Positions 19,963 through 31,405 of a stretch of 38,946 bases of DNA are shown piece after piece; positions within the stretch are counted from its first letter, which is position 1, and each line of letters begins with the position of its first letter. Location of the stretch: NCBI GenBank assembly GCA_013151835.1, contig JAADHK010000140.1:1-38946 (forward strand), read 5' to 3'. Made by a program: the position numbers and the translations under genes. The DNA is from Deltaproteobacteria bacterium. GTDB taxonomy: Bacteria; Desulfobacterota; Desulfobacteria; Desulfobacterales; Desulfosalsimonadaceae. Under the pieces are notes generated by a model. It was not told where the DNA came from. It did not search any database and saw nothing but the letters and a program-made list of their open reading frames with translations.

Positions 19963-20001
19963 AAAAAAACGGCATCCAATTGGATCGGATGCCGTTTTTT
20001 T
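19963..20001 (-). terminator. terminator of the IscA selenoprotein gene
   Basis: AAAAAAACGGCATCC (19963-19977) and GGATGCCGTTTTTTT (19987-20001) are perfect inverted copies with a 9-nt loop. On the minus strand the stem is followed by seven T residues, so it ends transcription from the selenoprotein gene; a symmetric A/T flank makes it bidirectional. A second small palindrome, AGCCTGAATTCAGGCT, lies at 20008-20023. Confidence 0.88.
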
Positions 20002-20063: not shown

Positions 20064-20375
20064 TCAGGAGCAGGAGCCCGAGCCGCAGCTTCCGCACCCC
20101 GCCGCACCCAGGTCCATGCTTGAATTGATCTTAAAACCGATTCCGCTGAAATCAACGGTTACGGGCTGGGCTTGCCTGAGAAAGTCCTTGTTGGCGATAA
20201 ATTGAAAACCCTTGACATCAAAGACTTCATCCGCTTCGTTTGGTTCATCCAGAACCATGGCCAGAGACGGCCCGCCTCATCCACCGGGATTGAGTAGTAT
20301 CCTGACCGGACGGACGTCGTTCGCCTTGAAATAATCGGCAATTTTTTCAACTGCCGCATCGGTGACTTCGAGCAT
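20064..20375 (-). CDS. IscA/HesB-family selenoprotein (UGA-Sec at codon 33)
   Basis: A 103-residue HesB/IscA-like protein interrupted by one in-frame TGA at 20279-20277. Reading it as selenocysteine gives MLEVTDAAVEKIADYF, then VRILLNPGG-U-GGPSLAM, and a second half running without a break to the cysteine-rich end GAAGCGSCGSGSC. U33 falls where IscA proteins carry the first of three cluster-binding cysteines, and the CxC pair near the end supplies the others. GGAGG lies six bases before the ATG, the promoter at 20447-20475 is well formed and a strong terminator follows, so the gene is intact, not a pseudogene. HesB-like selenoproteins are a known family in Deltaproteobacteria. It probably handles Fe-S clusters or a redox role; the advantage of Sec here is unknown. 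Ordinary gene calling would split it into two ORFs. Confidence 0.93.
20259..20279 (-). promoter_or_regulatory. candidate bacterial SECIS hairpin
   Basis: Directly after the TGA (20279-20277) the minus strand has GGCC (20272-20269), loop GTCTCT, and GGCC (20262-20259). A short hairpin with G and U in its apical loop immediately 3' of UGA is the expected form of a bacterial SECIS element bound by SelB. The stem is short (four to five pairs), so this is a candidate only. Confidence 0.4.
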
Positions 20376-20446
20376 TATGAACCTCCAGAAAAATTATATT
20401 ATTATTTATGCATTTTGATTTATAAAAAATGCAGGTAAGCGGAGTT

Positions 20447-20475
20447 AAGATAGTCATCAACAATATGGCTGTCAA
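20447..20475 (-). promoter_or_regulatory. promoter of the IscA selenoprotein gene
   Basis: Minus-strand TTGACA (20475-20470), 17 bp, TATCTT (20452-20447). The start near 20440 gives a leader of about 65 nt that is rich in A/T and ends in the GGAGG site. Confidence 0.65.
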
Positions 20476-20567: not shown

Positions 20568-21089
20568 CTATTTCCGGCCCATGCTTCCGGCATAAATATC
20601 ATATGCCATGGATGAAAAGAGCACAAACATAACCTTTTCTATTGTCTGGTCCGCCCTTAAAAAATCCGAAACTGTTTTTACTGCAATACGGGCGGCATCC
20701 TCGATGGGATAGCCATAAACACCACAGCTTATGGCCGGAAACGCAATGGAACCGATACCGTGATACGAGGCAATCTCCAGGCTGTTTTTGTAACAATTTG
20801 CCAAAAGCACGGCATCTTGTGGCCGGCCGTGATATACCGGTCCCACGGTGTGAATCACGTGTTTCGCAGGCAGCTTGTATCCTGCGGTAATTCTGGCCTC
20901 GCCTGTGGGGCACCCGCCCAGGGATCTGCATTCTTCAAACAGTTTCGGTCCGGCGGCGCGATGAATGGCGCCATCCACCCCTCCCCCGCCAAGCAGACTA
21001 CGGTTGGCGGCGTTTACAATGGCATCCACATCAAGCATGGTGATATCCCCTTCCATGATTTCCATACGGTCATAAATATTGGCTTCCAT
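20568..21089 (-). CDS. macrodomain ADP-ribose hydrolase (O-acetyl-ADP-ribose deacetylase type)
   Basis: A 173-aa single macrodomain. The ligand-binding motifs are clear: [34 protein letters not shown] near the N-terminus (given in family order), [21 protein letters not shown] and [12 protein letters not shown]. This pattern is that of the MacroD/YmdB group, which hydrolyses O-acetyl-ADP-ribose or removes ADP-ribose from proteins. The ATG at 21089 is preferred because GGGAGG precedes it; the ATG four codons upstream overlaps that site. It is transcribed divergently from ndk. No ADP-ribosyltransferase is visible nearby. Confidence 0.94.
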
Positions 21090-21101
21090 GTGGCCTCCCA
21101 T

Positions 21102-21130
21102 TTGACTTGTTTTCCTTTATTTGCTATCCG
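21102..21130 (+). promoter_or_regulatory. possible promoter of ndk
   Basis: TTGACT (21102-21107), 17 bp, TATCCG (21125-21130), in the 88-bp divergent gap between the macrodomain gene and ndk. The -10 is weak (three of six). Confidence 0.35.
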
Positions 21131-21177
21131 AGCATCAAAATTAACCCGAAACGATCAAAAATAAAAGGAAGAAAAAA

Positions 21178-21603
21178 ATGGAACAGACATTATCTATCAT
21201 CAAACCGGACGGAGTGGGCCGGGGAATAGCGGGCGAAGTTATCAGCCGCTTTGAAAAAAACGGAATCAGGATTGCGGCAGTAAAGATGCTGCACATGACA
21301 AAGGCCCAGGCAAAGGGTTTTTATGACGTCCACCGTGAACGCCCTTTTTTTGAAAGCCTGACTGATTTCATGTGTTCTGGTCCAATTATCGCAATGGTGC
21401 TTGAAGGAGAAAACGTAATTGAAAAAAACAGGACCTTAATGGGTGCAACCAATTTCAAGGAGGCAGCCGAAGGGACGATCCGTAAAGATTTTGCAACTGA
21501 CATTGAAAAAAACGTGGTCCACGGCTCTGATTCACCCGAAACTGCTACGACCGAAATTGCCTATTTTTTTAATAAATTTGAAATAACCGACGCGGTTTCT
21601 TAA
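21178..21603 (+). CDS. ndk: nucleoside diphosphate kinase
   Basis: A 141-aa NDK that transfers phosphate from ATP to other NDPs through a phosphohistidine. The opening [15 protein letters not shown], the [11 protein letters not shown] region, [18 protein letters not shown] and the active-site [10 protein letters not shown] (H115) are all present. AAGGAAG lies seven bases before the ATG. Single gene, convergent with lepA. Confidence 0.98.
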
Positions 21604-29215: not shown

Positions 29216-29887
29216 TCAAGACTGCTTGAGAATATATTCCTTTAATCTTTCAATATCTTCAGTAACAACCCTTTCAATCACCTCGGTTAAAATCCGGTCT
29301 ATTTTTTCCGCATACAATTTTTCGATAACGCTCTCAAGAGCGGATTCAAATTGCTCACGTGCCACGGAAACAGGCTCATCTTCAAAAACATTCACGGGTT
29401 CTGATACGGGCTGTCCGTGTAATTCCATTTTATCTACCGTATCATCAAGCAAATCAATAGCCTGCTCCTCGAGCTGAAAATAATTATCGAGCTCCTTTGT
29501 TATATCCTCTTCAATTGCGTCTATCTTGTCACCAGGCGCCATACCCGCACCGCCCATGGGCGGCATAGGATGACCGCTGGTTGCCGCGACCTTATCACTT
29601 TCTATTTTATCATGCTCCAGTGCATCGGGCGTTGAAATATCCAGCCGGTTTTCATCATAGTCACTGCTCCCGGCGGCATTCAAGACGCCTTCAAAGGCGG
29701 AATCAACAACATCTTCTGTCAATTCAATGACGGACTCGTCCCCAGATGACCTGCCCAAAGCAATCTCGGAAAGTTCTATGACATCTTCCACACTACCGTC
29801 TTCGTCATAGGGACGGGGTTTTACAGTTTTTGTGGCCACGTTTTCGGCATCGCCCAAAACCCCTGACTTTTTTTCGTTCTTTCCCAT
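29216..29887 (-). CDS. acidic hypothetical protein
   Basis: A 223-aa protein that I cannot assign to a family. It is strongly acidic and low in complexity through residues 20-150, with repeated short motifs (EDVIELSEIAL, ESVIELTEDVV). A Pro/Gly/Met patch (GHPMPPMGGAGMAPG) lies near the middle. The C-terminal 50 residues form amphipathic helices: FESALESVIEKLYAEKIDRI, then VIERVVTEDIERLKEYIL. Similar helical ends occur in some deltaproteobacterial regulatory proteins, which suggests a docking helix, but that is weak. There is no signal peptide or membrane segment. The ATG at 29887 has GGGAGG six to seven bases upstream; the frame continues 102 codons further but would collide with rsmE's start region. 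Confidence 0.75.
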   Translation of the reverse strand: MGKNEKKSGVLGDAENVATKTVKPRPYDEDGSVEDVIELSEIALGRSSGDESVIELTEDVVDSAFEGVLNAAGSSDYDENRLDISTPDALEHDKIESDKVAATSGHPMPPMGGAGMAPGDKIDAIEEDITKELDNYFQLEEQAIDLLDDTVDKMELHGQPVSEPVNVFEDEPVSVAREQFESALESVIEKLYAEKIDRILTEVIERVVTEDIERLKEYILKQS

Positions 29888-30093
29888 TAAATCCTCCCCC
29901 TGCCAATCACAAAACATATTTAAATTATTGGATAATACGTAAATATGGCCAATTTCAGCATCAAGAAGTTTGACACATTGAACCTCTTTATGCAAGCATT
30001 TGCGACCAGATACCACGGCAAACTGCATGATCCTGGCCGGGAGAAATGGAATGTATCCTGAAAAAATGGTACGAAATTGAATGGAGACAGACA

Positions 30094-30840
30094 ATGAGAC
30101 GTTTTTACATACCCCAGAATGAATTGCAAAAACAAAAGGCTGCCATAATCGGCCCCGACGTCCGCCACATCCAAAGAGTATTAAGGCTCTCACCCGGTGA
30201 CACGGTTTTAGTGTTTGACGGCTGCGGCAAAGAATTTACCGCAAAAATCGAAACGTTTTCATCAGATACGGTTTATATCTCCTTATTGGAAAAACAGGAT
30301 ATTCTACGTGAACCGCCCATATCTCTTCATGTGTGCATGGGATTTTTAAAAGACAAAAAAATGGATGACCTGATCCGTCACATGACGGAAATCGGCCTTT
30401 CTTCATGGACGCCCATGTTATCCGAACGCAGTGTGGCCCGACCGTCTGATGTGCGTGTTGAAAACCGGCTCAAACGGTGGCGATTGATCGCAATAGAAGC
30501 GCTCAAACAATGTGGCGGGGCGATTCTGCCGGAGATACGAAATCCAAAATCATTTGACCGGATCATAGGGGAAAACAAAGAGTATGACCTGGGCATTATT
30601 TTCTGGGAAAAGGCTGAGGCGCTGCTCGGAGAAGATGATATCGCAGCCTTCCCGCCAGGATGCAGGGTCTTGATACTGCTGGGACCGGAGGGTGGATTCT
30701 CGGACGAAGAGGCCGATGCCGCGCTTGGCGCGGGTTTTATTCCCGCATCTCTCGGCCCCCGGATTCTACGCGCTGAAACCGCTTCAATCAGCGCGGCTAC
30801 GCTTATCCAATATCTTTTTTACCGTCAAAAAACTTCTTGA
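30094..30840 (+). CDS. rsmE: 16S rRNA m3U1498 methyltransferase
   Basis: A 248-aa SPOUT-class methyltransferase that methylates U1498 of 16S rRNA. An N-terminal PUA-like domain (MRRFYIP, DVRHIQRVLRLSPGDTV) precedes the knotted SAM-binding domain with LLGPEGGFSDEEAD and LGPRILRAETASISAATL. GGAG lies seven bases before the ATG at 30094; the frame is open 16 codons upstream without a better site. Its stop overlaps the tRNA-Phe promoter. Divergent from the acidic hypothetical gene across about 200 bp in which I see no convincing promoter. Confidence 0.96.
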   Translation: MRRFYIPQNELQKQKAAIIGPDVRHIQRVLRLSPGDTVLVFDGCGKEFTAKIETFSSDTVYISLLEKQDILREPPISLHVCMGFLKDKKMDDLIRHMTEIGLSSWTPMLSERSVARPSDVRVENRLKRWRLIAIEALKQCGGAILPEIRNPKSFDRIIGENKEYDLGIIFWEKAEALLGEDDIAAFPPGCRVLILLGPEGGFSDEEADAALGAGFIPASLGPRILRAETASISAATLIQYLFYRQKTS

Positions 30841-30866
30841 CAGCCAGACTCTGTTTTCTCTATAGG
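30837..30866 (+). promoter_or_regulatory. promoter of tRNA-Phe
   Basis: TTGACA (30837-30842), 18 bp, TATAGG (30861-30866). The -35 includes the rsmE stop codon. The start near 30873 is about ten bases before the mature tRNA. Confidence 0.6.
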
Positions 30867-30882
30867 ATACACACATTTTTTG

Positions 30883-30955
30883 GCCGGGGTAGCTCAGTCG
30901 GTAGAGCAGGTGACTGAAAATCACCGTGTCGGCAGTTCGATTCTGTCCCCCGGCA
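30883..30955 (+). tRNA. tRNA-Phe (anticodon GAA)
   Basis: A 73-nt cloverleaf. Acceptor GCCGGGG/CCCCGGC, D-arm GCTC/GAGC, anticodon stem GGTGA/TCACC around the loop CTGAAAA (anticodon GAA), T-arm GGCAG-TTCGATT-CTGTC with one G-T pair, discriminator A. The terminal CCA is not encoded (CC followed by T), so it is added by nucleotidyltransferase. Confidence 0.96.
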
Positions 30956-30963
30956 CCTGAACT

Positions 30964-31054
30964 TTCAAATAATTTATCCGGACTGCGTTATCGGTCGGAG
31001 ATATACAAATAGTATTATCTCCTCCCTCTGGCCTTGCCGGATTAATTATTTGAA
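30964..31054. repeat. 91-bp nested inverted repeat after tRNA-Phe
   Basis: TTCAAATAATTTATCCGG (30964-30981) matches the reverse complement of 31037-31054 at 17 of 18 positions. Inside, GGAGATA (30997-31003) and TATCTCC (31016-31022) form a second stem. The remaining inner sequence pairs only partly. No T-run follows, so it is not a simple terminator. It begins nine bases past the tRNA. It could be a MITE-like or REP-like unit; no other copy is in the window. The sequence 31055-31193 after it is A/T- and pyrimidine-rich and I see no gene in it. Confidence 0.7.
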
Positions 31055-31193
31055 TGTCCAGCTTATTTTCTTTGCACCACATTTTTCTCCCCTCTCCTTG
31101 CCGCTAAACCGTTTTTATTCTTGGCTTCCCTCAAACAATAATCGCTCCTTCCCCATTTCCCATTATGGAATATCCGGATATCCTAATTAAAGT

Positions 31194-31222
31194 TTGACAT
31201 TTACCGTCTAATTAGATATTAA
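31194..31222 (+). promoter_or_regulatory. promoter of the yfiR-kinase-HD-GYP-receptor operon
   Basis: TTGACA (31194-31199), 17 bp, TATTAA (31217-31222). The start near 31229 implies a leader of about 175 nt before the ATG at 31406. Confidence 0.6.
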
Positions 31223-31405
31223 AAAAAGGTTTCCATGCAGTTACGGGGCAGTTACGGGGGAGTTGCCGGCACCGCACGGGGAAAAGCGCCATATCCCTTC
31301 CACGTCGACCATCCATTGTCCATACAGAGTCGGCCATCCGGTTTCCTCCGGCCAGACACATACAGGCCCGCCCGCTTCGAAGATCAACGTACAAAGGAGT
31401 TAGCA
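31223..31405 (+). other. long 5' leader of the yfiR-like operon
   Basis: About 175 nt between the predicted start and the yfiR-like ATG, much longer than other leaders here. It opens with a duplicated CAGTTACGGGG (31238-31258 region). The frame of the downstream gene is open through it from an ATG at 31235, but that would add an arginine/proline-rich stretch before the signal peptide, so I treat it as untranslated. It does not match the GEMM c-di-GMP riboswitch as I know it. Confidence 0.4.

Follow-up and report, generated by a model that had tools for sequence, protein, structure and literature searches.

The window analysed here, a stretch of 38,946 nucleotides from a deltaproteobacterial genome, holds on its minus strand, from 20375 to 20064, a single reading frame that encodes a 103-residue HesB/IscA protein by way of an in-frame TGA at 20279-20277. 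The frame begins with an ATG at 20375-20373 and its terminal codon, a second TGA, lies at 20066-20064, where the read-through product, MLEVTDAAVEKIADYFKANDVRPVRILLNPGG-U-GGPSLAMVLDEPNEADEVFDVKGFQFIANKDFLRQAQPVTVDFSGIGFKINSSMDLGAAGCGSCGSGSCS, ends. Residue 33, the position of the internal TGA, stands in the context NPGG-U-GGPSL. Coordinates, strand, TGA codon and sequence context are as an earlier note on this DNA had them. The features of the locus are given below.

20064 to 20375, minus strand: HesB/IscA-type selenoprotein gene, 103 residues plus stop, predicted selenocysteine (Sec) at residue 33; assigned from the frame, the NF038090 score, conservation in the family and alignment.
20277 to 20279, minus strand: in-frame UGA, predicted to be read as Sec; identical codon in the 59 UGA copies, window gene among them, of the 60 loci read.
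20241 to 20257, minus strand: putative SECIS-type hairpin of 6 pairs, loop UGGAU at 20251-20247, 25 nt from UGA to loop; assigned from conservation in UGA copies and covariation.
20070 to 20096, minus strand: C-terminal tail rich in Cys, CGSCGSGSC, a candidate source of further cluster ligands; from the sequence, with model pLDDT below 50.
20382 to 20386, minus strand: Shine-Dalgarno-like GGAGG, six bases before the ATG.
20447 to 20475, minus strand: promoter-like TTGACA-17-TATCTT, 10/12; 2 such sites in the window against 1.6 expected from shuffles.
19963 to 20001, minus strand: intrinsic-terminator-like hairpin with T-run, a stem of 18 pairs (6 G-C); terminator-like sites number 4 in the stretch against 1.1 expected.

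The two halves of the gene had been proposed to share frame, ribosome-binding site, promoter and terminator. The common frame, the GGAGG and the terminator-like hairpin agree with this, but the promoter at 20475-20447 is not established, because two promoter-like sites were found where 1.6 are expected in shuffled sequence. It had further been expected that automatic callers would split the gene, and a mechanical ORF list did return only a C-terminal fragment of 64 residues. NCBIfam, however, contains a dedicated model, NF038090, and automatic annotation is therefore better prepared than the earlier note assumed. A raw codon comparison with six relatives gave 14–20 synonymous and 14–20 nonsynonymous differences over the 58 codons past the UGA, and a similar picture before it, which is a weak test.

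The read-through product scored 113.6 bits against NF038090 (IscA_HesB_Se), for which the cut-off is 85. Against TIGR01911 (HesB_rel_seleno), the model given for HesB-like selenoproteins in the relevant section of PMC13188914, the score was 38.7 bits, under the cut-off of 66.35; the homology extends across residues 4–70 with the Sec position inside, and stops short of the Cys-rich tail, as for a related subfamily. The UGGP of the window protein fits the UxGP motif that the same section gives for HesB-like proteins. The TIGR00049 model of A-type carriers reached ~ 34 bits, below its cut-off of 58.8, so that by its sequence the gene would not be filed as a canonical IscA, SufA or ErpA, while the Pfam model PF01521 (Fe-S_biosyn) was narrowly passed (28.1 bits, cut-off 26.3). 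Nothing essential distinguishes the gene from the group of NF038090 and Desulfovibrio vulgaris DVU_1382, to which it would add a further species; the likeness to DVU_1382 is one of family assignment.

Twenty-eight proteins, in Sec and Cys forms, aligned together at the Sec position, and a profile of 28 relatives matched solved IscA and SufA structures. The Sec column fell on the Cys of RTSGCSG in IscA (1r94), which we take to be a cluster ligand, and on the IscA-type Cys in the profile match to 1nwb. An AlphaFold2 model of the window protein had a mean pLDDT of 83.5 and a pTM of 0.71, with residues 92–103 below 50, and a Foldseek search of this predicted model against the PDB returned IscA first (1r94, E 1.3e-6, TM-score 0.68), the best hits being IscA and SufA. 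A-type carriers have a C-terminal C-x-C ligand pair; no such pair was found in the window protein, whose tail reads CGSCGSGSC. The protein is therefore like IscA, SufA and ErpA in its predicted fold, in the position of the N-terminal ligand Cys and in passing PF01521, and unlike them in having Sec for Cys and a tail of the form CGSC...C as against the CGCG of IscA.

The in-frame TGA recurs widely. In the host's bacterial family NF038090 matched in 32 of 36 genomes: a copy with exactly one internal TGA was found in 29 of the 36, the window's own genome included, three had only TGA-less copies and four had no copy. Taken together with the score of 113.6 bits, this recurrence means that the arrangement is not a product of chance. 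The window genome itself gave a single NF038090 match. Across a sample of the phylum, 220 of 395 genomes had a match (168 over cut-off) and 175 had none, and a UGA copy was present in at least 119 of the 395, a lower bound drawn from the best matches listed for the 220. A search of contigs from named genomes gave four loci, in MAGs of Desulfobacterales and Desulfobacteraceae. Sixty loci (L021–L080), taken best scores first from the family and phylum searches rather than as a random sample, were then read and yielded 67 copies, 59 with UGA, counting the window gene, and 8 with Cys, Sec and Cys standing at one position. The claim that Sec stands where IscA has Cys thus holds in the alignment with HesB-like and Cys homologues that had been suggested as a check, and also against IscA itself.

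A second Sec at the terminal UGA was considered and rejected. The 59 UGA copies end in TGA (25), TAA (23) or TAG (11), and this variety indicates that the final codon acts as an ordinary stop. At L064, L065 and L067 the terminal UGA comes right after a Cys and a further stop follows one or two codons on; these are probably tandem stops.

The hairpin pattern GGNTCTGGATGANCC, searched with up to one mismatch, has a single occurrence in the window against 0.05 expected, and this lies in the HesB/IscA gene. All 59 UGA copies, the window gene among them, keep pairs 24-38, 25-37, 26-36, 27-35 and 28-34, and 54 also keep pair 23-39; the loop, 25 nt after the UGA, is UGGAU in 55, UGGAC in 3 and UGGCU in 1. 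Compensatory changes are seen at pair 26-36, which is U-A in 28 copies, C-G in 30 and G-C in 1 (L043), the G-C case entailing a change of both amino acids (Gly for Val or Ala, Asp for Glu). Leu codon 10 is CTG in 59 of 59 UGA copies and in 2 of 8 Cys copies. None of the 8 Cys copies keeps pair 27-35; 2 keep pair 25-37, 6 pair 28-34, 7 pair 26-36 and all 8 pair 24-38, and four retain the UGGAU loop. The 59 UGA copies make up a SECIS alignment for which the Cys paralogues act as internal control.

Covariation was assessed on 57 distinct sequences. Cells changed on both sides numbered 27 against a shuffled mean of 9.4, with 0 of 500 shuffles as high, and the covariation score and the percentage paired likewise lay above the shuffles. 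Two of the five measures were within the shuffled range, namely double-change pairs (1, reached by 374 of 500) and further pair types (4, a value that all 500 shuffles reached). Sliding the partner strand by 1–3 columns lowered the pairing from 98.5% to 16.7–50.6%. Note, however, that the covariation counts are inflated by relatedness and that the changes possibly represent few events. The geometry set out for bacterial SECIS elements (bSECIS) in the part of PMC13188914 used here is a loop of 3–9 nt, a stem of 4–16 pairs, a G in the first two loop positions and a distance of 16–37 nt from the UGA, and the window hairpin falls within it, with a 5-nt loop (UGGAU), 6 pairs and 25 nt. The same source requires an energy of at most −7.5 kcal/mol, against which the hairpin is borderline, at −6.8 kcal/mol alone and −7.6 with one flanking base per side; under a strict bSECIS energy script the window gene fails, while 45 of the 1439 TGA of the window pass. 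The evidence for a putative recoding hairpin is thus its conservation, not its energy.

The earlier note had also predicted SelA, SelB, SelC and SelD in the host, and a search of its genome (3.33 Mb in 147 contigs, 97.61% complete) recovered all four: tRNA-Sec, the product of selC, at 76.5 bits (cut-off 47), SelA at 509.2 bits, SelB at 364.8 bits and SelD at 343 bits. Among 14 control genomes, tRNA-Sec was over cut-off in 5 and SelA, SelB and SelD in 2 each. The host selD (L018, G000:C88:20438-21367) has one internal TGA of its own, and the selenophosphate synthetase is for this reason probably a selenoprotein too. In the phylum sample, counted by script from genome lists copied by hand, SelA was over cut-off in 114 of the 119 UGA genomes among the matches listed (Fisher p 0.016), and the remaining five had a tRNA-Sec over cut-off at 72.6–76.9 bits; SelA was also found in 14 of the 15 genomes with TGA-less copies only, again among the matches listed. 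This correlation is a weak test, because SelA is over cut-off in 356 of the 395 genomes anyway.

Given the continuous frame, the conserved UGA, the conserved downstream hairpin and the full set of Sec decoding genes, the window gene almost certainly encodes a genuine selenoprotein, one of the HesB-like (IscA_HesB_Se, NF038090) family. On established knowledge, SelB charged with Sec-tRNA would bind the hairpin and deliver Sec at residue 33, and synthesis would end with a 32-residue N-terminal peptide when Sec-tRNA is lacking. As such the gene is an expected, further member of a published family, since the accessible parts of PMC1794560 and PMC1914089 already place HesB-like selenoproteins in the Deltaproteobacteria, as the earlier note had stated: the former lists them for D. 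vulgaris, D. desulfuricans, G. sulfurreducens, Syntrophobacter and others, and the latter describes DVU_1382 as a TGA-containing HesB. A Cys-containing HesB-like protein with a putative remnant SECIS is shown for Desulfitobacterium in the legend to Figure 4 of PMC1794560. In Methanococcus maripaludis a HesB-like selenoprotein was identified through mutagenesis and 75Se labelling, according to the section of PMC11097638 drawn on here, where its function is called not clear and an unpublished observation is quoted that nitrogen fixation was not impaired in the mutant.

The interest of the window gene therefore lies in its function. Judged by homology, we lean somewhat towards an IscA-type protein that would bind an Fe-S cluster or iron, or pass clusters on, with the selenolate taking the place of the first ligand Cys of IscA and Cys residues of the C-terminal tail supplying further ligands. 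The genomic setting was examined with two models. A PF01521 search of the host genome gave zero matches and missed the window gene too; being blind to that gene, it is not evidence of absence, and TIGR00049 was used instead. The TIGR00049 genome search detects the window gene itself at 25.7 bits, and the only other match in the same genome is chance-like (12.5 bits, E 0.343). None of the 36 family genomes had a TIGR00049 match over cut-off, although 8 of the 14 control genomes did in the same search. Across the phylum sample such a match was present in 20 of 395 genomes, G327 among them through its UGA copy. A canonical carrier was found in 3 of the 119 UGA genomes among the matches listed (G123, G390 and G409), the other 116 being without, as judged by comparing the 20 with the 119 by eye. 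An IscU/NifU_N protein is encoded in the host genome (172.6 bits). With an IscU/NifU-type scaffold present and no canonical A-type carrier found, the selenoprotein may stand in for IscA, ErpA or SufA in the host, and it is probably the cell's only A-type-carrier-like protein, as far as an almost but not fully complete genome shows.

The role of such a carrier cannot be one generally needed in the phylum, because 175 of the 395 genomes sampled and 4 of the 36 family genomes apparently have neither protein; the NF038090 search also picks up canonical carriers, and genomes without a match seem to lack both. Further points count against a carrier function, namely that the tail of the window protein is unlike the CGCG of IscA, that no Fe-S assembly gene was recognised near it in the neighbours inspected, and that nitrogen fixation was not impaired in the M. 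maripaludis mutant, according to the unpublished observation cited above. It could be that the protein is a selenoprotein but no Fe-S carrier, with the selenol as a redox or metal(loid)-binding centre and the Cys residues of the tail acting as resolving thiols or as additional ligands, which we regard as possible but doubtful. Such a centre would suit a Cys-rich tail that has no predicted structure, and also the many genomes of the phylum that have neither selenoprotein nor canonical carrier; moreover, the section of PMC13188914 consulted describes most uncharacterised selenoproteins as likely redox proteins and several as involved in metal(loid) resistance. It is at odds, however, with the IscA-like fold and residue position, with the absence of a CxxU or UxxC motif around Sec in the read-through sequence and with the Cys found at the same position in 8 of 8 Cys copies read.

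If the IscA-type reading is extended beyond the host, a selenoprotein with a Sec cluster ligand would be the only A-type-carrier-like protein in many genomes of the phylum, part of Fe-S maturation there would depend on selenium, and surveys of carriers would have missed the protein partly through its UGA-cut gene. We offer this wider proposal tentatively and consider it, as a whole, rather unlikely. From the rarity of canonical carriers in UGA genomes (3 of 119, with a UGA copy in at least 119 of the 395 sampled) follows the prediction that Fe-S enzyme maturation in such bacteria responds to selenium supply. A phylogenomic study reports, in the part seen, that A-type carriers are absent from many Delta-Proteobacteria (PMC2682760), and UGA-truncated genes may have contributed to those absences. 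None of the passages of the literature consulted on HesB-like selenoproteins and carriers describes such a selenoprotein as a cell's only A-type-carrier-like protein, and no priority is claimed. Two TIGR00049 matches in the sample, G094:C40:104521-104826 and G209:C100:9538-9846, have two TGA inside the match; in G209 the second is probably the gene end, since the shorter NF038090 match there has one TGA.

A different possibility is that the UGA has its main role as a selenium-dependent switch, in which a shortage of selenium brings about termination as the regulated outcome and a Cys paralogue takes over where present. Sec/Cys isoform switching by selenium is described for M. maripaludis in the available section of PMC11097638, 15 of the 119 UGA genomes counted (among the matches listed) also have a TGA-less copy, and UGA and Cys copies lie side by side at seven of the loci read. 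The window genome, by contrast, gave a single NF038090 match and so no paralogue was found to switch to, and we consider a switch improbable as the main role of this UGA. At the seven loci (L053, L054, L055, L062, L075, L079 and L080) the UGA and Cys copies are a few hundred bases apart. In a tree built on few columns the f49 pairs form one well supported group and the f24 pairs another, weakly supported, and these separate groups suggest more than one duplication. That the gene is a pseudogene, or carries a sequencing error or nonsense mutation, with the UGA a real stop and the C-terminal half never made, would explain why a plain ORF list yields only a fragment, but this very improbable reading was rejected on the conservation of the UGA (29 of 36 family genomes and at least 119 of 395 in the phylum sample) and of the covarying hairpin, and it sits ill with a complete Sec gene set.

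The neighbours of the gene in the window include a macro-domain protein, a nucleoside diphosphate kinase-type gene (NDK) and a DUF748/AsmA protein. Others are, presumably, LepA, a prepilin peptidase, a phosphofructokinase and RdgB/HAM1. NDK was found near 26 of the 60 loci, the macro domain near 15 and LepA near 13 (window included), and only in related lineages. Among the neighbours inspected, some of them with a library of models, none was recognised as an Fe-S assembly gene. At 20568-21603 the macro-domain gene lies upstream on the same strand together with a divergent NDK, an arrangement with synteny in related lineages. Elsewhere in the window a 325-residue ORF on the minus strand (29216-30193) had no Pfam match at E 0.001. 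Beside it, the ~ 1 kb from 30194 to 31234 holds no ORF in the hand-made list of main ORFs, and a 264-residue ORF on the plus strand (30046-30840) overlaps both.
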